Part shown: positions 6,580 through 26,878 of the stretch, in pieces | How the letters are laid out: each line of letters starts with the position of its first letter | Position numbering within the stretch: position 1 is the first letter of the stretch | Assembly (NCBI GenBank): GCA_020723345.1 | Contig: DYJA01000063.1 | Coordinates: forward strand, 1-38,494 | Direction: 5' to 3' | From: Candidatus Aquidulcis sp. | Lineage (GTDB): Bacteria > Chloroflexota > Anaerolineae > UBA4142 | Length of the DNA: 38,494 nucleotides | Position numbers and translations under genes: made by a program | Notes under the pieces: model-generated | The model's input: only the letters and a program-made list of their open reading frames with translations | What the model was told of the DNA's origin: nothing | Databases searched by the model: none

Positions 6580-7017
6580 TCAGTCACGCTCAGTTTGAAC
6601 ACCATCATTCTCCTCGGCGATTCGCTCGAACGGAGCGCGGGTCGAGCCACGGCGATGGTGTTCTTTTTGATTGCGAACGTATTCTACGACATCGTTCATA
6701 GCGCGATCGCCAAACGTCAACGCGCCGTAACCTTCTTGCCAACTAAAATTTTCCGATGCGTTCGGCTGATGATTCACATAGTGCGACGACGCGCCCTTGA
6801 AATGTTTGACGCAATCGGCGACGGCGATCTTGGGCGGAATCGAAACGGCAACGTGGATGTGATCTTCGATATTGCCGATCGCGTGGACGATGACGCCAAG
6901 TTCTTTGGCTTTGCCGAGAATTGTTCCGTAGATTTGTCGTTCCAATGACTCGGTGATCAAGGGCAAGTGTTGGTACGTTGCCCAAACGAGATGGTAGTGC
7001 AATCGCCAATATGCCAT
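6580..7017 (-). CDS. tnpA: IS200/IS605-type Y1 (HUH) transposase
   Basis: This is a 145-aa protein of normal length for a Y1 single-strand transposase. The HUH motif is HIH in NIEDHIHVAV. The conserved FSWQEGYGAL and the catalytic Tyr in VVEYVRNQKEHH follow. These enzymes cut and rejoin single-stranded DNA at hairpins. The start at 7017 is fixed by GGGAGGAG upstream; a longer frame starts inside the tandem repeat and is rejected. No tnpB lies nearby. Immediately upstream are a 14-bp tandem repeat and two cloverleaf palindromes, an arrangement like that of REP-associated transposases. It is therefore either a domesticated transposase serving the repeats or a plain IS200-like insertion. No frameshift is seen. 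Confidence 0.88.
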   Translation of the reverse strand: MAYWRLHYHLVWATYQHLPLITESLERQIYGTILGKAKELGVIVHAIGNIEDHIHVAVSIPPKIAVADCVKHFKGASSHYVNHQPNASENFSWQEGYGALTFGDRAMNDVVEYVRNQKEHHRRGSTRAPFERIAEENDGVQTERD

Positions 7018-7043
7018 TTTGCTCCTCCCGTTTTTGCGATGCG

Positions 7044-7099
7044 ATGGACGCCGCCGAATGGACGCCGCCGAATGGACGCCGCCGAATGGACGCCGCCGA
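7044..7099. repeat. 14-bp tandem repeat, four exact copies
   Basis: The unit ATGGACGCCGCCGA is repeated four times without change. It ends where the left arm of the first cloverleaf hairpin begins and contains the CGCCGA of that arm. It looks like local amplification of the hairpin's 5' half. It lies 27 bp upstream of the transposase start. Confidence 0.9.
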
Positions 7100-7207
7100 A
7101 TCAATTCGGCGTCTCACCGAGGTGGAAATCGGCTCAAGCCGATTGCGTGCGCGCTAACCCGATTTATCGGGTTTCCACCTGGTTAGCCCGCGAATTCATT
7201 CGTGGGC
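7094..7207 (+). repeat. Cloverleaf palindromic element, copy 1
   Basis: Hairpin A is CGCCGAA/TTCGGCG (7094-7111). A closing stem pairs AGGTGGAAA (7120-7128) with TTTCCACCT (7172-7180). It encloses hairpin B, AATCGGC/GCCGATT (7127-7144), and hairpin C, AACCCGA/TCGGGTT (7156-7173). Hairpin D is GCCCGCGAA/TTCGTGGGC (7186-7207). The copy is followed head to tail by copy 2. Confidence 0.85.
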
Positions 7208-15409: not shown

Positions 15410-15519
15410 CGCCGATTGGAAATCGGCGTCTCAACAAGGTGAAAACTCGATCAATCGAGTTGGTCATAATCGGTTTCCAACCGATTTCCACCTTGCTGAG
15501 ACCCCGAATTCATTCGGGG
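15410..15519 (-). repeat. Cloverleaf palindromic element, copy 3 (inverted)
   Basis: This copy is reversed relative to the others. Its closing stem is the longest: GTCTCAACAAGGTGAAAA (15427-15444) pairs with TTTCCACCTTGCTGAGAC (15485-15502), with only two mismatches. It encloses AACTCGA/TCGAGTT (15444-15461) and AATCGGTT/AACCGATT (15468-15486). The outer hairpins are CGCCGATT/AATCGGCG (15410-15428) and CCCCGAA/TTCGGGG (15502-15519). It ends 7 bp from the alcohol dehydrogenase stop codon (15527). Confidence 0.87.
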
Positions 15520-16780: not shown

Positions 16781-19700
16781 TCAGACCTTCGAGGTCTCCA
16801 AAACCTCGAAGGTCTTTTTGCGATACAATCGCTCAAACATCCAGTCGAGCAATGTTTTCGCGAATTCGGGATTATCGGTGACTTGCTTGTAAAACTTGAA
16901 ATCCGAATCTACGATCTCTTGCAAACGGTCGTTGAGCACGTGCTCAAAAGTGAGTCGCGCGTTGTCGCGCGTATTCGCGCGGAGACTCGCTTCCAACGCG
17001 GGATCACGCGCTAATTGTGCTTCCAATTGGTGAATAGACGCCCGCGTGTTCTCGCCCAGGTTTGCGCCGAACCGTTCATTCAATTCGCGAATGATTTGCG
17101 AGAGCGGTTCCATATCTTCGGGCAATGGGATTGCCGCGCCCTTCGGGCCTACCGGTTGCAACTCCGCTGTGCCGCGTGGTAGTTTGATTTTTCCGCGTGA
17201 GGTCTGCTTGACGGTGTACGATTCAATGTCAATGTTGCGTTGGACTTCGACCGGCAATTTGTCTTTGGTCACAGGTAACTTGCGGAGCAAAAGACGACCA
17301 AATACGTAAAGCCGTTCGAGATCGGCATCAGTAAAAGTAATGATTTGCGAAACAAACGCATAAAGGCGAACATAGTCCGCGAGTTTGCCGCGAAATTCGG
17401 TTTGGTCATCTTTGGTCGCGGCGTTGTAGCGGTCTATCGCCGGGGCAAGCGCGGCGTGCAGTTTGTCTTGCGTACCTTTCGGGTCAAAGTAGATGTTGGC
17501 AAAGCGATTGATTTCGGCTTCCGTGTAGAATTGGAACGCCGACAATTGCGTTTGCAGATCATACAGCAAATTGGGGTCGGTGGCTTCTTTGAGCAGGGTC
17601 TTGTCGAAGTACGGCTCGAACGCTTTCTGTATATCGTCTGCTTGGTTCGCGAAATCGAGTACCATCGTCTCGTCTTTGTTGGGATTGATGCGATTCAAGC
17701 GCGACAAGGTTTGAACGGCGTGAACACCGGCAAGCCGCTTGTCCACGTACATCGTGTGCAACAGCGGTTGGTCAAAGCCAGTTTGAAATTTCTCCGCGAC
17801 GACCATCAAGCGATACTCGTTTTGCTTGAACGTCTCGGCAGTCGCTTTCTCTGGAATATTCTTCTCTGGCGTCGAATTCATTTGCGCTTCAGTGTAGGTC
17901 AAGCCATTATCCGGGTCTTTGACCGTGCCCGAAAACGCGACGAGCGCTTTGAACGGATGCCCTTTCTCTTCTAGGTATTTGTCTACTGCCAGTTTGTAGC
18001 GAACCGCATGCAAACGCGAGCGCGTGACAATCATCGCTTTGGCTTTGCTGCCGATACGATGCGCGACCTGACTGGTAAAGTGATCGACCATGATTGCCAC
18101 TTTGGTCGCGATGCTATGTTCGTGCAATTCGACAAAGGAGCGGAGCAGGCGCGTCGCTTTTTCGCGGTCGTAGCGCGGATCGTCTTGGATTTTCTTGAGT
18201 AGCATCCAGTACGCTTGGTAGGTCGTGTAGTTCTCCAACACGTCAAGAATGAATCGTTCTTCGATGGCTTGGCGCATCGTGTACAGTGAGAACGCGCCGA
18301 AGCGTCCGTCGGGTTGGCGCGTGCCGAAGAGTTCGAGCGTTTCGCTCTTGGGTGTTGCGGTGAACGCGAAATAACTCGCGTTCGGCAGATGTCCGCGCTT
18401 TCTCATCTGCGCGTTGATGGCATCTTCCGAGTCTTCGGCTTCGCTTTCCTCGCGCTCGGCTTCTTCCAAACTTTTCGCCGCAAGTACCGCGTTTAATTTG
18501 AATCGTCCTTCTCCACCCTGCGACGAATGTGCCTCGTCAATGATGATCGCAAAGCGTTTGCCTTCCAGTTCTTTGATCTGATCGGTAATCATCGGAAACT
18601 TTTGGAGCGTCGTGACGATGATCTTTTTGCCTTCCGCGAGCGCGGTTTTGAGTTGGCGCGATGTCTGGTCAATGTTCTCGACGATGCCGAGCGTTTGCTC
18701 GAATTGGCGGACGGTGCGCTGCAACTGTCGATCCAGCACGCGGCGGTCGGTGATGACGATGATCGAATCGAAAATCGCTTGGTCGTTTGCGTCGTGCAAA
18801 CTCGTCAGTTGGTGCGCGAGCCACGCAATCGAGTTGCTTTTGCCGCTGCCCGCGCTGTGCTGAATCAGATAGCGTTGTCCCGCGCTTTTCGCGCGCGCGT
18901 CGTCGAGCAGACGGCGGACGCAATCGAGTTGATGATAGCGCGGAAAAATCAATTCGTACGTGCCGGTCTTTTTGCCGTCCTCGTCTTCCTTTTCGATGAA
19001 CTGGATGAAAGTCTGCACGAGGTCGAGCATACTGTCGCGCGCCCAGACTTGCTCCCAGAGGTACGCGGTCGCAAAACCTTGCCACGAGGGGGGATTGCCC
19101 GCGCCGCCCTCGCGTCCCTGGTTGAACGGGAGAAAACGCGTCTTGCCGCCTTCGAGGCGCGTCGTCATGTAAACGAGATCGGGGTCAACCGCGAAATGCG
19201 CGAGCACGCGCCCGAACGCAAAGAGCGGCTCGCGCGGCTCGCGCGTCGTGCGATACTGCTTGACCGCGTCTTCGACCGTTTGCCCGGTCAACGGATTTTT
19301 CAGTTCGGCGGTGATGATCGGCAAACCGTTGAGGAACAAAACGAGGTCAAGCGAGTTTTCGTTTTTCGCGCTGTACTTGACCTGGCGCATCACCGAAAAG
19401 AGATTTGCCGCGTAGAGGCGTTGCGTTTCGGGATTGATTTTGCTCGCGGGGCGAAAATACGCGAGTTGGAATTTGCAGCCATTTGCCTTGATGCCTTTGC
19501 GGAGAACGTCGAGCGTCCCGCGCTGGCGAATCTCGTGCGCCAGCCGGTGAAAAAATTTGTCTGGCGCGTCGTTGCCGTATTGCTTTTTGAATTTCGCCCA
19601 CGCTTTGGGTTGCGACGCGTAGACAAAATCGAGCGCGTCGCGGCGGATGAGCATAAGCGTTTTGTCGTACTCGTCCGGCGCGCGTTTGCAATAGCCGCCG

Positions 19701-19822
19701 GGCACAAAGCCGCTCGTTCGCGCTTCGCGCGCGATGTCTCCCGTCGCACCGTCGGGTCCACCAGCAAGAAGAGATGCTTCGATTGTCGCTTCAAAATTCT
19801 TTTCGGAATAGTCTACCGGCAT
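16781..19822 (-). CDS. hsdR: Type I restriction enzyme, R (motor-nuclease) subunit
   Basis: This is a 1013-aa protein of standard HsdR length. The N-terminal nuclease domain shows the PD-(D/E)xK set Asp159, then Glu173 and Lys175 in ITAELKNP. The DNA translocase follows: Walker A SAGSGKS (323-329), DEAH (429-432) and motif III TATPK. A C-terminal helical domain binds the methylase core. It cuts unmodified DNA after ATP-driven translocation, acting in complex with HsdM and HsdS. GGAGC precedes the ATG at 19822. Other genes lie between hsdS and hsdR. The C-terminal FEVLETSKV comes from a palindromic repeat. The reading frame is intact. Confidence 0.94.
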   Translation of the reverse strand: MPVDYSEKNFEATIEASLLAGGPDGATGDIAREARTSGFVPGGYCKRAPDEYDKTLMLIRRDALDFVYASQPKAWAKFKKQYGNDAPDKFFHRLAHEIRQRGTLDVLRKGIKANGCKFQLAYFRPASKINPETQRLYAANLFSVMRQVKYSAKNENSLDLVLFLNGLPIITAELKNPLTGQTVEDAVKQYRTTREPREPLFAFGRVLAHFAVDPDLVYMTTRLEGGKTRFLPFNQGREGGAGNPPSWQGFATAYLWEQVWARDSMLDLVQTFIQFIEKEDEDGKKTGTYELIFPRYHQLDCVRRLLDDARAKSAGQRYLIQHSAGSGKSNSIAWLAHQLTSLHDANDQAIFDSIIVITDRRVLDRQLQRTVRQFEQTLGIVENIDQTSRQLKTALAEGKKIIVTTLQKFPMITDQIKELEGKRFAIIIDEAHSSQGGEGRFKLNAVLAAKSLEEAEREESEAEDSEDAINAQMRKRGHLPNASYFAFTATPKSETLELFGTRQPDGRFGAFSLYTMRQAIEERFILDVLENYTTYQAYWMLLKKIQDDPRYDREKATRLLRSFVELHEHSIATKVAIMVDHFTSQVAHRIGSKAKAMIVTRSRLHAVRYKLAVDKYLEEKGHPFKALVAFSGTVKDPDNGLTYTEAQMNSTPEKNIPEKATAETFKQNEYRLMVVAEKFQTGFDQPLLHTMYVDKRLAGVHAVQTLSRLNRINPNKDETMVLDFANQADDIQKAFEPYFDKTLLKEATDPNLLYDLQTQLSAFQFYTEAEINRFANIYFDPKGTQDKLHAALAPAIDRYNAATKDDQTEFRGKLADYVRLYAFVSQIITFTDADLERLYVFGRLLLRKLPVTKDKLPVEVQRNIDIESYTVKQTSRGKIKLPRGTAELQPVGPKGAAIPLPEDMEPLSQIIRELNERFGANLGENTRASIHQLEAQLARDPALEASLRANTRDNARLTFEHVLNDRLQEIVDSDFKFYKQVTDNPEFAKTLLDWMFERLYRKKTFEVLETSKV
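16783..16815. repeat. AGACCTTCGAGGT double palindrome, hsdR 3' copy
   Basis: The arms AGACCTTCGAGGT (16783-16795) and ACCTCGAAGGTCT (16803-16815) are perfectly complementary. The hsdR stop codon (16781-16783) overlaps the first base, so the last ten or so hsdR residues (FEVLETSKV) are repeat-encoded. Confidence 0.88.
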
Positions 19823-19923: not shown

Positions 19924-20259
19924 ATGGATGAGAATCGTTCCAGAATGACTGGCAGTGATTCCGGCGTTGCGCAGTCGTTTCAGGCAATTTCAACCTTTCG
20001 AGATACGCCCCGCGTGTACGTTGGTGACGCCCTGCGGGTTGTTGCTTTTGATTACGTCTCAACTCAACGCGAGATTGCGTTGATCGATCAAGTGGCTAGC
20101 GCGTTTGGGTCCATTCTTTCCACGCCGCTGCCGCGCGCGGCATATCTGGCTAGCGATGGTTGGGTCAGTGATGCTGATCTTGCTCTCGTGGATCGGATGA
20201 GAGAGGTACAACTCGAAGCATTTTACTTGATGAACCCCGAAACCCGCTCGGTCAGTTAG
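19924..20259 (+). CDS. Small hypothetical protein, convergent to the MazF-like gene
   Basis: This is a 111-aa soluble protein with no recognised domain. The first 25 residues are polar (MDENRSRMTGSDSG). The middle has a strand-turn pattern (RVYVGDALRVVAFDY), and a helical end contains DADLALVDRMREVQLEAFYL. It is the only plus-strand gene between 5 kb and 28 kb. It has its own strong promoter and AAGGAG ribosome-binding site. Its stop codon lies in the loop of a terminator shared with the opposing toxin gene, and the two coding regions overlap by 8 bp. A role as partner or regulator of the neighbouring toxin or RM genes is possible but not shown. Confidence 0.65.
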   Translation: MDENRSRMTGSDSGVAQSFQAISTFRDTPRVYVGDALRVVAFDYVSTQREIALIDQVASAFGSILSTPLPRAAYLASDGWVSDADLALVDRMREVQLEAFYLMNPETRSVS

Positions 20260-20274
20260 CCGAGCGGGTTTTTA
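20241..20274 (+). terminator. Shared terminator with two stop codons in its loop
   Basis: AACCCGCTCGG (20241-20251) pairs perfectly with CCGAGCGGGTT (20260-20270), and TTTT follows. The 8-nt loop holds the stop codons of both convergent genes: TAG at 20257-20259 on plus and TGA at 20254-20252 on minus. Confidence 0.88.
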
Positions 20275-20689
20275 CTATCTGGTCGAAGTTGAGCACGCGT
20301 AACAGTCGCTCGTATATGCGCTGCATGATCTGCGGAGAGAGGTGGGTCAAGAAATATTGGTCGGGCAATCCAGTTTGCACCGACACGCAATAGATTTGAT
20401 CCGTTTTCGCGATCGAGTCCTTGTCAAGTTTGGGACATTCGCGTCTGGTAATGATGACATGCGGAGTGTAATTGGGTTTGCGGTGTTCTGCGCCAGATAG
20501 CGGAAGAATCAGGACTGTTCCCCGCAATGTTAGCTCCGTATTGTTGATCACGACGGCGAGATGGGGTTCTGCCATCGTCCGATCTTGGTTTGAGCGAGCC
20601 GCCCCGAAATCGAACCAATACACATCACCCCACCGCGGATAGCGGTCAAAAGTAAAATCTCTGGGTAGAATGTGGTATGGAAAAGGCAT
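20252..20689 (-). CDS. PemK/MazF-like endoribonuclease toxin
   Basis: This is a 145-aa protein. WGDVYWFDFG is the diagnostic N-terminal strand of the MazF/PemK fold. The core beta-strand AEPHLAVVINN and LRGTVLILPLSG follow, then VIITRRECPKLDKDSIAKTD and QIYCVSV. It is somewhat longer than typical (110-120 aa) because of an N-terminal extension (MPFPYHILPRDFTFDRYPR). It would cleave mRNA at short sequences. No antitoxin of MazE type is seen on the same strand. The gene lies 11 bp after the ClpP-fold protease gene, with GGAGC upstream, so they are likely cotranscribed. Confidence 0.75.
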   Translation of the reverse strand: MPFPYHILPRDFTFDRYPRWGDVYWFDFGAARSNQDRTMAEPHLAVVINNTELTLRGTVLILPLSGAEHRKPNYTPHVIITRRECPKLDKDSIAKTDQIYCVSVQTGLPDQYFLTHLSPQIMQRIYERLLRVLNFDQIVKTRSAN

Positions 20690-20700
20690 TGCGACTGCTC

Positions 20701-21810
20701 CTATGAATGTGTCACATTGACGCGGTCAGGCGCGTTGGAAGTACCTTCTGCTTGCCAGGGCAGATCAAGCCATTGTGCCGCAATCGTTTGCCTCTTTTGA
20801 ATTAGGGGTTGTTCTTTCTCTTGTACGCTAACATAAACCTCTTCAAGAACCTGACGACGCGATGTACTATCTATCCACACAATGGGTCTGGCAATGTGCT
20901 GTGGATTGTCCCCGATCGGTCGCGCGATTCCGCCGAACGCGGCATAATGCTCGTACAACCGCCACATCGTTTCCCATAAAGCATCGTCCGCGTACGTTAC
21001 AGGCAACCCCAGGTCTTGCGCTTCCTTCCATCCGATTCGATAATGGTGTGAAAAGAATTCGTCAGAGAACGCGTCGACGATCTTTTTGATTTTTTCCGCT
21101 TCGGTTTCCGGGTTCATGTGTGTTTTCAGCGCCTGGGCTGAAATCAATCGCGCGAGCGCGTACGATTGTTCAATCGCGCCAAGCGCAAGGGGATGCACTT
21201 TGTCGAACAACGCGGAATAGATCGTAGCAAGTGATTCCGGTGTATACTCCCCGCCTTCGCGTTTGAGGAACTCGATACAGTGCCGCAAGTCCTGGACCGA
21301 TATGAGCAGCGATTGGTTATTCTCTTTGGGCAACAGGGGATGCGTCCGCGCGGGGTCAACGGGACCTAGTTCTGACATATCGCCCATCACGATTTCGTTC
21401 GCGCCCATCGCAATGTGGGTCGCCGCGCTGTACGCCATAAACGGAATGAGCACGCGAAATTCTTGGCAAAAGTTCCGAATGAGTGTGATCATTCGCCAGG
21501 GTACTTCGCTTTCACCGCCGGTGCTGTGGACAAACAAATCAATCTTGGGAACGCGCCCGATGCGCCTCAATTGCGCGTACAGTTGGCTGGGGATGTCTCC
21601 CCGCACGATCACGTCGGGATAGGCAAAAAAAGTGATAACGCGCGAGTCGCGGATCTTTTCGATTTCTTGAATCAGTGCCAGCGTTTCGGCTGGCGGGGGT
21701 AGTTTGACCACCGCGCCGGGCACCGGGATGCTTGGTTGAATTGGCGCGGGACCAACGTGCGGAATGTTTGGGCTTGACGTTTGCGCTTGGCGTTTCTGTT
21801 TTGAACCCAT
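20701..21810 (-). CDS. SDH-family ClpP-fold serine protease
   Basis: This is a 369-aa protein of the serine dehydrogenase proteinase (SDH_sah, PF01972-like) group, related to ClpP and SppA. Key segments are the oxyanion region LFVHSTGGESEVPWRM, the presumed nucleophile Ser in FMAYSAATHIAMGANEIVMG and MSELGPVDP. The N-terminal 40 residues are polar and Pro-rich. No signal or membrane segment is seen, so it is likely cytoplasmic. The start at 21810 (MGSKQKRQ) is chosen because GGGAGG lies five bases upstream; the adjacent ATG at 21813 is possible. It lies between hsdS and the MazF-like gene on the same strand. Confidence 0.78.
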   Translation of the reverse strand: MGSKQKRQAQTSSPNIPHVGPAPIQPSIPVPGAVVKLPPPAETLALIQEIEKIRDSRVITFFAYPDVIVRGDIPSQLYAQLRRIGRVPKIDLFVHSTGGESEVPWRMITLIRNFCQEFRVLIPFMAYSAATHIAMGANEIVMGDMSELGPVDPARTHPLLPKENNQSLLISVQDLRHCIEFLKREGGEYTPESLATIYSALFDKVHPLALGAIEQSYALARLISAQALKTHMNPETEAEKIKKIVDAFSDEFFSHHYRIGWKEAQDLGLPVTYADDALWETMWRLYEHYAAFGGIARPIGDNPQHIARPIVWIDSTSRRQVLEEVYVSVQEKEQPLIQKRQTIAAQWLDLPWQAEGTSNAPDRVNVTHS

Positions 21811-21870
21811 CATTGCCTCCCTCTGAATCATATCCGAATCTGTGGTGAATGCAAGTGCGAGAAACAAGCA

Positions 21871-23274
21871 TCAACCTGGCATTTCTCTCACATCCATCTT
21901 CCCCGTCACCGCCGCCGAAATCAGCGCGGTGCGGTACTCTTTCAGCGTTTCGATGGCTTGGCGCACTTTGGCGATGAGCGCGTCAATCTTGGCAGTCTCG
22001 CGGTCGAGGTACGCGGCGATGGCGCGTTGTTCGTCGAGCGACGGCACCATTACAACGAGCCGACCTAATTCTGCTTGGTTGTATGTTGTGTTTACCCTTG
22101 TCTTGGAGGAAGAAAAAAAATCCCTGTTCCTGAGATTGTTCAAAAACATCTGATAGTATCGCGATTCGAATTTGGACAAATCGAATCTGAGTCTCAACAA
22201 AAAAGAAACGTGGGTGTATTCACCCTCCGCGCCGAAGTACGCAGTTTTTCCAACATGATCTGCGCTGCCGTTTCGCCAATTGAAAAGCAAATCGCCCTTG
22301 TGGAGCAGAAGCTGTTTCTTTTGTTCTGGGGTTAGCGGAGTTTTAGGAACATCGTCCAAAACAAGTTGCCCTTCTTTTGTCACGTTCGGAAGCGAAAGAA
22401 TGCAAGTCCCTTCTGTTTCGGTTCTGTCCAATTCAAGCGTTAGTCCGTAATTTATCTCGGCAACATGTTTGAATTGACGCGCTTCCCAATGCTTCGGCAC
22501 ATTCCCCAACCACGCCACGCCGGAATCTTTCAGTGGCGCGTTTGTGTCCAATCCGCGCGTAACCGCGTGGCTAATCAGCGCGGTACGTTTCTCCTGCAAC
22601 AGTTCAATCAGTCGCTCATTCTTTGCCACCAGCGTATCAAGGCGCGCGGTCTCGCGGTCAAGGTACGCGGCGATAGCGCGTTGTTCAGGGAGAGGAGGAA
22701 TCCAGATAGGCAAACATGCCAACTCGGATGGGTTGATTGCCGGATAGCCAACGCCGACCGAATGCGCGACAACAGTTTCGATAAATTCTTTGGAGCGTAC
22801 CAAAGTGTGAAGAAATTTCGGCTCGATTTCTGGCTTTGGGCGTAACACCGCAAACCCGGTCGAGACAATCAAATTTTCTGACGGATTTTCAAAATAGGCA
22901 ATTGCTTTGAGATACGTGCGAACCGTTGAAAGAATTGTGTCTCCAGCACGAACGACGCGACGTGCACGGCTCGGCGCGCTTTCAAAACGCATTTCTTGTG
23001 GTGGATTCGCGCCGCTGACCTCTTCAACGTTACTGATGTCAACGTACTGCAGTACAAAATCGGGGTCGGTAGTCTCCGGCAACGTTTCAGGATTCAAACG
23101 AACAGCATTTTTCAACCGCTTGACTTCCCAATGCGCGGGAATATCGCCCAGCCACGTGACGCCGGAGGGTTTGTAGGTGGGGTAGGGTTGGTGGCGCGGG
23201 CGGGAGACCTTCGAGGTTTCCAAAACCTCGAAGGTCTGAGATGCCGTTTTTGCGGCTACTTGATTTTTATCCAT
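21871..23274 (-). CDS. hsdS: Type I restriction enzyme, specificity subunit
   Basis: This is a 467-aa protein with two target-recognition domains, each ending in a conserved helix. Repeats frame them: VTWLGDIPAHWEVKRLKN (about 38-55) is echoed by VAWLGNVPKHWEARQFKH, and LPEQRAIAAYLDRETARLDT is echoed by LDEQRAIAAYLDRETAKIDA. The two recognition domains differ strongly, as expected for recognition of a bipartite asymmetric DNA site. Residues 14-24 (TFEVLETSKVS) are encoded by an inserted palindrome (23205-23237), so the true ancestral start may have been further in, near MxxP. No good ribosome-binding site precedes the ATG at 23274. Confidence 0.92.
   Translation of the reverse strand: MDKNQVAAKTASQTFEVLETSKVSRPRHQPYPTYKPSGVTWLGDIPAHWEVKRLKNAVRLNPETLPETTDPDFVLQYVDISNVEEVSGANPPQEMRFESAPSRARRVVRAGDTILSTVRTYLKAIAYFENPSENLIVSTGFAVLRPKPEIEPKFLHTLVRSKEFIETVVAHSVGVGYPAINPSELACLPIWIPPLPEQRAIAAYLDRETARLDTLVAKNERLIELLQEKRTALISHAVTRGLDTNAPLKDSGVAWLGNVPKHWEARQFKHVAEINYGLTLELDRTETEGTCILSLPNVTKEGQLVLDDVPKTPLTPEQKKQLLLHKGDLLFNWRNGSADHVGKTAYFGAEGEYTHVSFLLRLRFDLSKFESRYYQMFLNNLRNRDFFSSSKTRVNTTYNQAELGRLVVMVPSLDEQRAIAAYLDRETAKIDALIAKVRQAIETLKEYRTALISAAVTGKMDVREMPG
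23205..23237. repeat. AGACCTTCGAGGT double palindrome, hsdS N-terminal copy
   Basis: AGACCTTCGAGGT (23205-23217) and ACCTCGAAGGTCT (23225-23237) are perfect inverted arms. The element is translated in frame as part of the hsdS N-terminus and gives the same peptide (FEVLETSKV) as the hsdR copy. Confidence 0.88.
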
Positions 23275-23342: not shown

Positions 23343-24186
23343 TTATCCGCTTGAACCTAGTCTGTTTGAGGGCTGTACTTTTTCCAGCGCCAGCGGGTTG
23401 GAGTCGCTGTACCATTCCCCGTACCGTTTGTTCCGCGTATCGTCAATGTCCATAATCAACCGGTAATCCTTCGCTAACAACAGAAAGAAACGCTCCTCGC
23501 CCACTTCGTACAATCGCTGCAACGCCCATAAGTAGTAATCCACCACCTGAAGCCCGGCAAATTCGGACGGATAAGCCGATTGGATATCGGTTGGCTTGTC
23601 ATGAAACTTGCCCCACCGTGTCGCAAAATTGCGTTTGGCTTTGGCGATGGCTTGCTCCAACGCGTCCTTGCGCGCCACTTTGCCACGCCGCGCAAAAACG
23701 ATGCGATTTTCGTCCGCCTTGTGGAGCAGGTTGCGAAACAATCGTTTAATCAAATCGTCGTAGATGCCATTGGGGTCGATCTTTTTGCCGTAACGAAAAA
23801 GCGATTGGGCTTCGCGGACAAGCATCTCTTTGCGGCGAATGACGATTTGAACCTCGGGGTTGAGCCCCGGCAAAACGGCGAGGACTTCGTCTGACCTCTG
23901 GTAAATCGTTCTTGGCATGGAACGTCATCGCCGTTTTCTTCTCGCTCGGTTGAAACGATGGCACATCTTTAAAGTACGGATCGGCGAGCAACCGCGCGCG
24001 CAGCGTTTCCAATTTGTCCCGTGCAAGTTCGGGCTCGGGCAAATGCGCTACGCCGACCATAAAAAAATTCGAGACGCCTTCTTTGCCGAGCAAAACCCGC
24101 CCCTTTTTGTCGAACAGGGTGAGATCACCGGCTTCATCAACAAAATAGTGCCGAATGGTTTTCGATTCTAGCGGCGTTTCCGTCAT
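23343..24186 (-). pseudogene. DUF3800-family gene broken by one frameshift
   Basis: The first frame starts at 24186 (ATG, overlapping the hsdM stop as ATGA) and reads HYFVDEAGDLTLFDKKG, the YxDExGD signature of the RNase H-like DUF3800 family, on to MTFHAKNDLPEVR near 23897. The sense then passes to another frame, which reads DEVLAVLPGLNPEVQIVIRR and continues to the stop at 23343 with family-typical segments (VVDYYLWALQRLYEVGE). Joined, they give about 280 aa, the normal size. A one-base change near 23893-23900 explains the break. It could be a true mutation, a sequencing error or a programmed shift. The gene lies between hsdM and hsdS in the operon, a position where DUF3800 proteins are known near defence genes. 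Confidence 0.82.
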
Positions 24187-26216
24187 CCCGCCACCTCGCG
24201 CAACATCTCCAGAATTTCCTTTTCCAATGTCTTGATGTCTGTTTCGATTTCTTCCAACGCGCGCGGCGGTTGGTACTTGTAAAAGTACCGGTTGAAATTG
24301 ATTTCGTACCCAACCTTGCCGATTTCCTTGTCTTTCAGGTCGCGCACGTCGGCGTTGATCCACGCGTCCGGCACGTGCGGTTTCACCTCACGATCAAAGA
24401 ACGCTTGCGCGTCTTCGCCGAGCGGCACGTTTTCGGTGTCGCGCAATTCGGGATCGGGTTCGGGATTGCCGTCCGCATCGCGGCAAATTGCCGTGGTCTC
24501 ATCGCGTTCGGAGAGCGCGGAGAGAATGGCTTTGCGGAGCGCGGCGGTCTTGATTAGACCTTCGAGGTCTTGGAGACCTCGAAGGTCTCTCTCGAATTCC
24601 GCGCGGTCTTTGAACACCGTTTGCGGCAACGTTGCCAACCGCGCCAGAATTTCTTCTTGCTTCTTGCGTCCGGCGGCAACTTCCGCGTCGTGTTCCTTGC
24701 CCTTTTTCTTTTTGCTTTCGGCAAGCACGACAAACGCGCGCTCGGTCTTCAAGCGCGCGATGCGCTCCGGACTTGCCTGGAAATTCAAGCGCAGCGGTCG
24801 CTCGACCGTGATCTTGCGATAGCCGAATGCAGTCGTCGGGAAAGTCTTGGAGCGCGCGCTTTCGGCGAATACTTCGTGGCTTTCGGCGATCTGCTTGATG
24901 TGTTCGTTTGCAATTTCGTGCCGCTTGTCGCCTAAACTTTTTCGCATTGGCGTCCACAGATCGGTCGCGTCGATCAACTGCACTTTGCCGCGTCGCGCTT
25001 TCGCTTTGCGATTCGTCAAAATCCAAATGTACGTCGCGATGCCGGTGTTGTAAAACAATTGCTCCGGCAGCGCGACAATCGCTTCGAGCCAATCGTTTTC
25101 CAGAATCCAGCGGCGGATTTCGCTTTCGCCGCTCCCCGCGTCGCCGGTGAACAACGGCGAGCCGTTCATCACAATCCCGATGCGACTGCCGCCTTCTTTC
25201 GCGTCCGCCATCCGCCCCAACATGTGTTGCAGGAAAAGCAATTGTCCGTCGCTGATGCGCGGCAGTCCCGCGCCAAATCGTCCGGCGAAACCTTTGTCCG
25301 CTTCCGCCTCGACTTTTTCCTGATCCATCTTCCATTCTTTGCCGTACGGCGGATTCGTCAGCATATAGTCGAAGCGTTTGTCGGCGTGTCGGTCGTTTGA
25401 AAGCGTACTGCCGAATGCGATGTTTTCCGCGTCGCGACCGTCGGGGCTTTTGATGAAGAGATCGGCTTTGCACATCGCGTACGTTTCAGGATTGACCTCT
25501 TGTCCGTACAGATACACTTCGGCGTTCGGATTAATTTCGCTGATGCGATCTTTGGCAATCGTCAACATGCCGCCGGAGCCAGCGGCAGGGTCAGCCACTT
25601 TGCGGACGATGTGATTCTTTTTGAGCATGTCGCGGTCGGGCGCGACGACCAATTCGACCATCAGATGGATGACATCGCGCGGGGTAAAGTGTTCGCCGGG
25701 GTTTTCGTTCAGCGCTTCGTTGAACTTGCGGATCAATTCTTCAAAGATCGTCCCCATCGTGTGGTTGTCCACCACCTCCGGGTGCAGATCAATATTCTTA
25801 AAGCGTTCCAGGACGAGGTAGAGCAAGCCCGCCTCGTCCAGTTTCGTAATCGTGTTCTCGAAATCGAATTTCTCCAACACCTCGCGCATGTTGTCGGAGA
25901 AACCGTTGATGTAATTTCGCAGATTTGCGGCGAGGTTGGGCGCGTCGTCCAGCAGTTTTTCAAAATCGTAACGCGAGGTATTGTAGAACGCGTAACCCGA
26001 TGCCTTGCGGAGTTGTGGCGCGAGGTTTTCCAGTTTGCCTTTTAGCGCGGCGTTGCGCTGCAACACCTTTTCTTTCGTCGGCTGCAAAACGCAATCGATC
26101 CGGCGCAAGACGGTCAACGGCAAAATCACGTCTTGATATTTGCTGCGCTTGAAACTGTCGCGCAAGAGTTCGGCAATCGTCCAGATGAAGATGACGTACT
26201 GGCTAAAGTTGTTCAT
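24183..26216 (-). CDS. hsdM: Type I DNA methyltransferase subunit
   Basis: This is a 677-aa N6-adenine methylase subunit. The N-terminal helical domain (10-130) is followed by the catalytic domain with AdoMet motif I DPAAGSGGM (209-217) and catalytic NPPY (288-291). Then comes a long C-terminal region that interacts with HsdS. It is longer than the common 500-530 aa, partly because of an added C-terminal segment. Residues about 543-554 (RGLQDLEGLIK) come from an in-frame palindrome (24556-24588). The leader upstream of the ATG at 26216 is almost entirely repeat arms. The stop overlaps the DUF3800 start. Together with HsdS it sets the modification specificity. Confidence 0.93.
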   Translation of the reverse strand: MNNFSQYVIFIWTIAELLRDSFKRSKYQDVILPLTVLRRIDCVLQPTKEKVLQRNAALKGKLENLAPQLRKASGYAFYNTSRYDFEKLLDDAPNLAANLRNYINGFSDNMREVLEKFDFENTITKLDEAGLLYLVLERFKNIDLHPEVVDNHTMGTIFEELIRKFNEALNENPGEHFTPRDVIHLMVELVVAPDRDMLKKNHIVRKVADPAAGSGGMLTIAKDRISEINPNAEVYLYGQEVNPETYAMCKADLFIKSPDGRDAENIAFGSTLSNDRHADKRFDYMLTNPPYGKEWKMDQEKVEAEADKGFAGRFGAGLPRISDGQLLFLQHMLGRMADAKEGGSRIGIVMNGSPLFTGDAGSGESEIRRWILENDWLEAIVALPEQLFYNTGIATYIWILTNRKAKARRGKVQLIDATDLWTPMRKSLGDKRHEIANEHIKQIAESHEVFAESARSKTFPTTAFGYRKITVERPLRLNFQASPERIARLKTERAFVVLAESKKKKGKEHDAEVAAGRKKQEEILARLATLPQTVFKDRAEFERDLRGLQDLEGLIKTAALRKAILSALSERDETTAICRDADGNPEPDPELRDTENVPLGEDAQAFFDREVKPHVPDAWINADVRDLKDKEIGKVGYEINFNRYFYKYQPPRALEEIETDIKTLEKEILEMLREVAG
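24556..24588. repeat. AGACCTTCGAGGTCT double palindrome, inside hsdM
   Basis: AGACCTTCGAGGTCT (24556-24570) and AGACCTCGAAGGTCT (24574-24588) are perfect inverted arms three bases apart. The 33-bp length is a multiple of three and the frame is kept. Confidence 0.9.
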
Positions 26217-26218
26217 GC

Positions 26219-26280
26219 AGACCTTCGAGGTCTCCGAGTGTCGAAGTAGACCTTCGAGGTCTTGGAGACCTCGAAGGTCT
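26219..26280. repeat. One and a half double palindromes in the hsdM leader
   Basis: A single arm AGACCTTCGAGGTCT (26219-26233) stands 2 bp from the hsdM start codon. A complete unit (26248-26262 and 26266-26280) lies 14 bp further upstream. Each 15-bp arm is itself a small palindrome (AGACCT...AGGTCT). Confidence 0.88.
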
Positions 26281-26294
26281 GAGTACTCGCAACG

Positions 26295-26323
26295 ATTATA
26301 CTTGTGCTTTACGATTTACGCAA
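26295..26323 (-). promoter_or_regulatory. Promoter for the hsd operon
   Basis: On the minus strand, TTGCGT (26323-26318) and TATAAT (26300-26295) are separated by 17 bp. The predicted transcript starts near 26288, just before the repeat arms, and reaches the hsdM ATG after about 72 nt. Confidence 0.65.
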
Positions 26324-26365: not shown

Positions 26366-26878
26366 CTATCCGCGTTCTCCCGGAATGTACGGAATCAAGC
26401 CCTTGCGAAACGCGATCTCCTGCACCTCGCGCGGCGCGTGACGCGCGTCGATCATCAAGCCGTTGACCGAAATCATCCACGCGAGCGGATTTTTATCCAT
26501 CATACTTGGCACCGTCCAGCGTGGATCCATCTGCATTATATCGAACATTTTGCGGATCGCCTGCGACTTGTTGCCGCCGGTGCTTTGATTCACGCCGAAC
26601 GCTTGGCACAATTCGTCCGCGCGGATGTGCGGCTTTTGCGTTTTGTCGAACAGAAAATTGACCATCCCGATCGTGTACGCGATCCCGCACGCCCACACTT
26701 CGGGCTTGCCGCGCGTGATCGGCGAGGGACGTTTGCGCGCGAGCGCGGCGGCAAGGCGCCGACACATTTCCGCGTACTCGTCGTTCAGGTGCTCTTGGCA
26801 CACCTTGTCGGTGAGCGCGACAATCGCGTCGTACGTCGCGCGCATTTCGTTTGGGACCGATTCGGATTTTTCTGGCAT
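26366..26878 (-). CDS. DUF6398-type protein
   Basis: This is a 170-aa soluble protein with the conserved segment ITRGKPEVWACGIAYTIGMV followed by NFLFDKTQKPHI, as in proteins of the DUF6398 group. A helix-turn-helix-like part (ADELCQAFGVNQSTGGNKS) comes next and resembles a DNA-binding helix pair. The function of the family is not established. AAGGAAAG lies upstream of the ATG at 26878. The gene sits between the MFS transporter and the hsd locus on the same strand, with palindromic repeats on both sides. Confidence 0.7.
   Translation of the reverse strand: MPEKSESVPNEMRATYDAIVALTDKVCQEHLNDEYAEMCRRLAAALARKRPSPITRGKPEVWACGIAYTIGMVNFLFDKTQKPHIRADELCQAFGVNQSTGGNKSQAIRKMFDIMQMDPRWTVPSMMDKNPLAWMISVNGLMIDARHAPREVQEIAFRKGLIPYIPGERG

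Follow-up and report, generated by a model that had tools for sequence, protein, structure and literature searches.

A candidate mobile palindromic repeat associated with RAYT-like transposases in Chloroflexota, and its copies in the leader of an hsdM gene

The window, a stretch of 38,494 nucleotides, is contig C94, one of the 132 contigs of a 6.34-Mb draft genome. It carries a type I restriction-modification operon whose methyltransferase gene, hsdM, is preceded by three short repeat arms. We consider it probable that these arms are a full copy and a half copy of a candidate mobile, RAYT-associated, REPIN-like palindrome of Chloroflexota, and that they brake hsdM. The palindrome forms a family of high copy number with covarying cores, lies predominantly 3' of genes and is associated with one transposase subfamily; the hsdM arms descend from a system that resembles REPIN/RAYT but lacks the GTAG tag. 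A guess about a single gene is thereby replaced by a general account that ties one palindrome to one subfamily of transposases in genomes of a bacterial class. In this account the element enters gene leaders, gene tails and reading frames, among them those of all three core subunits of the restriction system.

Repeat arms in the hsdM leader

The hsdM leader, the 72 nt upstream of an ATG at 26216 that is conserved in three close orthologs, contains a 33-nt palindrome and one lone half of it (Table 1). An earlier note on this DNA, made without database searches, had described it as almost wholly composed of three 15-nt arms that could fold alone or pair with an inverted neighbour; the arms were confirmed, and the leader is largely made up of them. 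In the mRNA sense arms 2 and 3 are identical and arm 1 is the inverse of both, and allowing up to three mismatches we observed 17 arm matches in the window against 0.72 expected, a count in which both strands were searched and one arm may score twice. Every single arm can form a 6-bp AGACCU/AGGUCU hairpin, and the pairings of arm 1 with arm 2 and of arm 1 with arm 3 are mutually exclusive. The GAAGG that the note had assigned to the last arm does belong to arm 3, at a distance of 5 nt from the ATG, and is the only well-placed Shine-Dalgarno-like sequence of the leader. The fold of a 141-nt segment had a z score of -4.7 relative to dinucleotide shuffles.

Two features had been missed at first reading. 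Arms 1 and 2 together make up one perfect palindromic element, and a second full element lies nearby, behind the upstream DUF6398 gene. The proposal that the leader arose by repeat insertion gains support from this, the arms being copies of a dispersed element. Arm 3 is probably a truncated second element, since the CTCGG directly before it matches the middle of an element copy on contig C79. Origin of arm 3 by tandem duplication was rejected, as the 29-nt units are only 79% alike, too weak a likeness outside the arms. A candidate -10 hexamer, TATAAT, is accompanied at a spacing of 17 nt by a -35 sequence, TTGCGT (26323-26318), that fits at three of six positions. A promoter scan reported nothing, and a transcription start near 26288 is only a guess.

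Table 1. Positions in the window of the repeat elements, leader signals and neighbouring genes
Feature	Position	Strand	Basis
Full 33-nt palindromic element, REPIN-like doublet, core TTCGA (arm 1, 26266-26280; arm 2, 26248-26262)	26248..26280	-	sequence
Lone half-element, 'singlet' (arm 3)	26219..26233	-	sequence
GAAGG, Shine-Dalgarno-like, in arm 3	26222..26226	-	sequence
TATAAT, possible -10, weak -35	26295..26300	-	read from sequence; absent from promoter scan
Full 34-nt element, 6 nt past DUF6398 stop codon	26326..26359	-	sequence
Upstream gene, DUF6398 protein, same strand as hsdM	26366..26878	-	domain match
hsdM, type I methyltransferase subunit, 677 aa	24183..26216	-	N6_Mtase 7e-61, HsdM_N 3e-25
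Element in frame inside hsdM, RDLRGLQDLEGL	24556..24588	-	sequence; translation
hsdS, specificity subunit	21871..23274	-	domain/family match
Element at 5' end of hsdS frame, QTFEVLETSKV	23205..23237	-	sequence; translation
hsdR, restriction subunit	16781..19822	-	domain/family match
Element forming C-terminal codons of hsdR, KTFEVLETSKV-stop	16783..16815	-	sequence; translation

A dispersed family of untagged palindromes

The family has the form AGACC-N5-GGTYT-spacer-ARACC-N5'-GGTCT. A search with AGACC-N5-GGTYT-N(1-8)-ARACC-N5-GGTCT, in which complementarity of the cores was not demanded, returned 111 copies from the genome of the window and 0 for the reversed control pattern; an initial search in which the spacer was set at 4 nt and the inner arm was fixed had the wrong spacing and matched nothing. 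Among 60 relatives, 36 carry the element, as do 131 of the 298 genomes examined from the class, with 0 control matches among the rows listed. We read 61 of the 111 copies, a non-random sample taken first by contig and comprising the window's five and others from stretches that had been examined. While N5 varies, N5' was perfectly complementary to it in 53 of the 61 copies, which yielded ten perfect core types. As in REPs and REPINs, the unit is an inverted doublet and singlets are rare: 61 doublets were counted against eight exact arms outside doublets, and of these eight only the arm at 26219 had no near-complete partner. A target-site duplication of 4-9 nt, as looked for in a MITE, was found at none of the 61 copies, nor was there a conserved flank around them. 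The end tags GTAG and CGTC were not enriched in the 122 flanks (GTAG 1, CTAC 2, CGTC 0, GACG 3).

The same 61 copies were placed relative to genes with a home-made codon-based gene caller, by which 84% of the sequence was coding. Between genes, 28 copies stood in tandem, 11 in convergent and one in divergent arrangement; three others ran across a gene end, one lay at a contig edge, and 17 were called within genes, a number to be taken as an upper guess. The upstream stop codon was at most 15 nt away in 29 of 53 distances and the downstream start codon in seven of 32, so the copy behind the DUF6398 gene occupies the family's usual site. Within the limits of this caller and sample, the element is a dispersed, mostly extragenic, 3'-biased short palindrome, like a REP or REPIN. 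The copies are not intrinsic terminators as a class, because only seven of the 32 copies behind genes had at least five T within the next 8 nt. Five full copies fall within 9.6 kb of the operon, a region picked after the fact, compared with 0.18 expected per 10 kb at mean density.

Association with a RAYT-like transposase subfamily

In the relative with the closest hsdM ortholog (G013), a small transposase gene (L092:13580-14179) stands directly behind hsdS, and elements are found before, inside and behind it. Its product matched Y1_Tnp (E 2.5e-5) and scored 52.1 bits (E 6e-14) against the REP_Tyr_transpos/RAYT equivalog NF047646, which is below the curated cut-off of 80; by this comparison it is related to the equivalog, with the cut-off missed. 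The sole match of the RAYT family profile in the PDB was TnpA_REP (4er8, E 5e-7). Structure prediction of the RAYT without an alignment gave a mean pLDDT of 39 and was left out of the argument. The genome of the window itself has one close RAYT copy (C102:89353-89952).

The total number of Y1_Tnp genes was rejected as the driver of copy number, as the two were unrelated in 20 genomes (rho 0.18, p 0.46), and the subfamily was therefore examined instead. Ten genomes with a close RAYT, defined as a match at E<1e-40, were compared with 50 genomes without one; eight of the former had at least 44 copies of the element, and the latter had 0-38 (p = 3e-6). Because this limit was picked after inspection of the first genome set, the test was repeated on 239 genomes outside it, where 36 genomes with a close RAYT again differed in copy number from 203 without (p = 2e-10), and at least one copy was present in 31 of the 36 and 65 of the 203. 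The genomes are related to one another, so both p values are optimistic. Exceptions occurred in both directions. Among the 36 added genomes that have a close RAYT, five hold no copies, and G193, G260, G266, G146, G242 and G150 hold 43-215 copies with no close RAYT found. Incomplete MAGs may explain part of these exceptions, and in the latter six genomes the transposase was possibly lost or unassembled, or another driver was at work.

At the loci themselves, 30 of 35 close RAYT genes were scored, the HUH motif not being found in the other five, and one mismatch was allowed in the frame. Arms were found before the gene in 23 of the 30, inside it in 22 and behind it in 23, against a background of six in 212 control windows; a RAYT gene flanked by copies of the element is also a feature of REP and REPIN systems. 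The internal copy is read in frame immediately after the HUH motif. Its core agrees with that of the copies flanking the gene at 21 of 22 loci, where the shuffle maximum was 12 of 22 and 12 distinct internal cores were represented. Among distant RAYT loci, 14 of 20 could be scored and arms were present before one gene, inside none and behind none; this set replaced an earlier one of 11 loci, in none of which the HUH motif had been found. The loop that houses the internal copy is missing from four distant RAYTs that were aligned. In one genome (G046, L198) the arms of the elements near the RAYT gene are tens of bases apart, with starts separated by 50-80 nt, rather than by 3-4.

These observations suggest a route by which the arms reached hsdM. 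The transposase would copy the palindrome while it is a hairpin of single-stranded DNA. The element may have entered the operon because the operon once had a gene of this transposase as a neighbour; in G013 one lies directly behind hsdS. A further reading, that palindrome and transposase specify each other and that the hsdM arms are offshoots of the version with the TTCGA core, strikes us as improbable. On this reading, when the 5-nt core of a lineage's element changes, the in-frame copy would alter the loop peptide of the transposase too, and the loop, which may serve in recognition, would change in step with its substrate. If the internal copy does have a role, about a dozen natural pairs of element and loop would be at hand for questions of RAYT-REP recognition.

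Systems of REPs with RAYTs are already known, as are REPs that are read in frame and REPs that follow stop codons, at least from the portions of PMC3733652, PMC3116915 and PMC12306157 that are cited here. Like the REPINs of Pseudomonas fluorescens and other bacteria, as outlined in part of PMC3116915, the present elements are inverted, hairpin-forming doublets with singlets as remnants, and they are mostly extragenic with copies beside a RAYT gene. They differ from that outline in their length of 32-34 nt and spacer of 2-4 nt (copies read), in lacking GTAG, in inner 5-nt segments that vary yet remain complementary, and in having a copy in frame within the RAYT gene itself. The GTAG- and CGTC-tagged REPs, in the account excerpted from PMC3733652, are likewise palindromes of 20-40 bp that follow genes and separate ORFs in tandem or convergent order; some are in frame in proteins, and the GTAG type flanks RAYTs; however, with neither tag enriched, the present family falls outside that superfamily. 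The Rickettsia palindromic elements of the same partial account also occur in frame in proteins, as this element does in HsdM, HsdS, HsdR and RAYT, whereas a transposase partner is evident here; this comparison is one of description. In the parts of the literature on palindromic repeats, REPs and RAYTs that were searched, Chloroflexi and Anaerolineae included, the family was undescribed and no REP within a RAYT gene was mentioned, and a search for the letters of the element found no such repeat in titles or abstract openings. Neither an untagged family whose cores covary nor a copy of matching core in the transposase gene was found in the literature so covered.

A second Y1_Tnp/RAYT-like gene (82 bits) is located in the window at 6580-7104 on the minus strand. 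A different repeat family, GCCGA..TCGGCGTCTCA, occurs near it at 7095 and 7217, with more copies at 15411 and 29224.

Leader folding and the operons of relatives

The best predicted fold of 26288-26190 pairs arm 1 with arm 3 (-48.9 kcal/mol) and leaves GAAGG with an unpaired probability of at most 0.001. The alternative pairs arm 1 with arm 2 beside a self-folded arm 3 (-40.3 kcal/mol), and the AGG of GAAGG is still in a stem. In a growing chain, the pairing of arm 1 with arm 2 is predicted to form first and to be displaced once arm 3 emerges. By folding, GAAGG stays closed for the 5' ends tried between 26400 and 26282 and becomes partly open only with a 5' end inside the arms, from 26264 on. 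In the stretches examined, 19 copies preceded a start codon by at most 50 nt. The gap before the start held another arm only at hsdM and ordinary, often purine-rich sequence in the other 18, and the predicted accessibility of the start region was lowest at hsdM (0.13; next 0.15).

The earlier note had proposed that the pairing of the arms decides whether the ribosome can bind, and that repeat insertion may thus have created a translational switch for the methylase. In terms of the two folds, arm 1 would select either arm 2 or arm 3 and so turn translation on or off. The mutually exclusive pairings and their order in the growing chain speak for such a toggle, as do the Shine-Dalgarno-like bases within arm 3 and a comparably placed copy in one relative (G005, below). 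However, each of the two states keeps all or part of GAAGG in a stem, so that arm pairing is predicted to provide no open and closed positions, and the arrangement is not conserved in orthologs or homologues. In the closest ortholog, that of G013 (87%), the leader has neither an element nor a Shine-Dalgarno sequence. In G014 (73%) an element with a different core precedes a promoter-like sequence and hsdM is almost leaderless, and G005 (77%) keeps one element, with an AGGG outside it; arm 3 is absent from all three. We also folded 38 homologous leaders, including those of G005 (L058) and G013 (L092); 47 of 80 loci were used, and nine were dropped without a start codon near the match. None had a comparable fold, the median z score being 0.1 against -9.7 for the present leader (mononucleotide shuffle) and the lowest -3.8, for G005. 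No arm was found within -200..0 of hsdM in 23 homologues of the class. In an Rfam search, matches were sub-threshold and no family reached its gathering score, and phage records gave no match. Since GAAGG is covered in both folds and the leaders of orthologs and homologues differ, a conserved switch is unlikely, and we regard the toggle proposed in the note as quite improbable.

Because both states hide the ribosome site at least in part, the insertion is more likely to hold hsdM translation down at all times than to switch it under regulation. On the transcript, arm 1 would pair first with arm 2 and then with the newly made arm 3, and coverage of the site in either pairing would steadily lower HsdM synthesis. 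According to the part of PMC12306157 considered here, E. coli REPs prefer sites behind stop codons, as this family does, and those at most 15 nt from stop codons are reported to lower translation. The hsdM element, in contrast, precedes a start codon, and its effect is a prediction of folding: the arms should reduce translation.

G005 supplies the main argument for an older hairpin. Arms 1 and 2 might be a long-retained leader structure that stabilizes the mRNA or insulates it from read-through, with arm 3 a recent accident. In the 70%-complete G005 genome no close RAYT was found, and the single matching copy lies in the hsdM leader at -61..-29, nearly the same distance as here (-64..-32); the gene order hsdM, DUF3800, hsdS, hsdR is also common to both genomes. 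Random insertion alone leaves this sole copy in the same leader unexplained, which counts against our preferred reading and favours retention of the leader element; the operon may have moved together with it. On the other hand, the element is absent from the closest ortholog, and the flanks of the two leader copies are not significantly alike, their score being reached by 104 of 2000 shuffles upstream and 389 of 2000 downstream; the same insertion in both therefore cannot be shown. We judge the older hairpin improbable and retain insertion of a mobile element as the preferred account of the arms.

Among the orthologs compared, only that of G013 shares the element at the same site within hsdM, the others having a different linker of similar length. 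The HsdR of G005 has a different C-terminal end, unlike the KTFEVLETSKV of the present protein, and the HsdS of G013 contains three in-frame copies. The segments 24555-24588 and 26247-26280 are 100% identical over 34 nt and, the unit being palindromic, would be usable in both orientations; recombination between them could invert or delete the first 1.65 kb of hsdM and so cause phase variation. However, 34 nt is a short substrate for homologous recombination, and we hold this to be extremely improbable.

The DUF3800 gene behind hsdM is apparently split into two frames at about 23746-24186 and 23343-23918 on the minus strand. One frame opens at an ATG overlapping the hsdM stop codon, the C-terminal part is in another, and the domain match begins only at profile position 62; a frameshift or an assembly error is possible. 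Between hsdS and hsdR, at 20252-21867 on the minus strand, are genes for a PemK/MazF-like toxin and a ClpP-like SDH-type protease.
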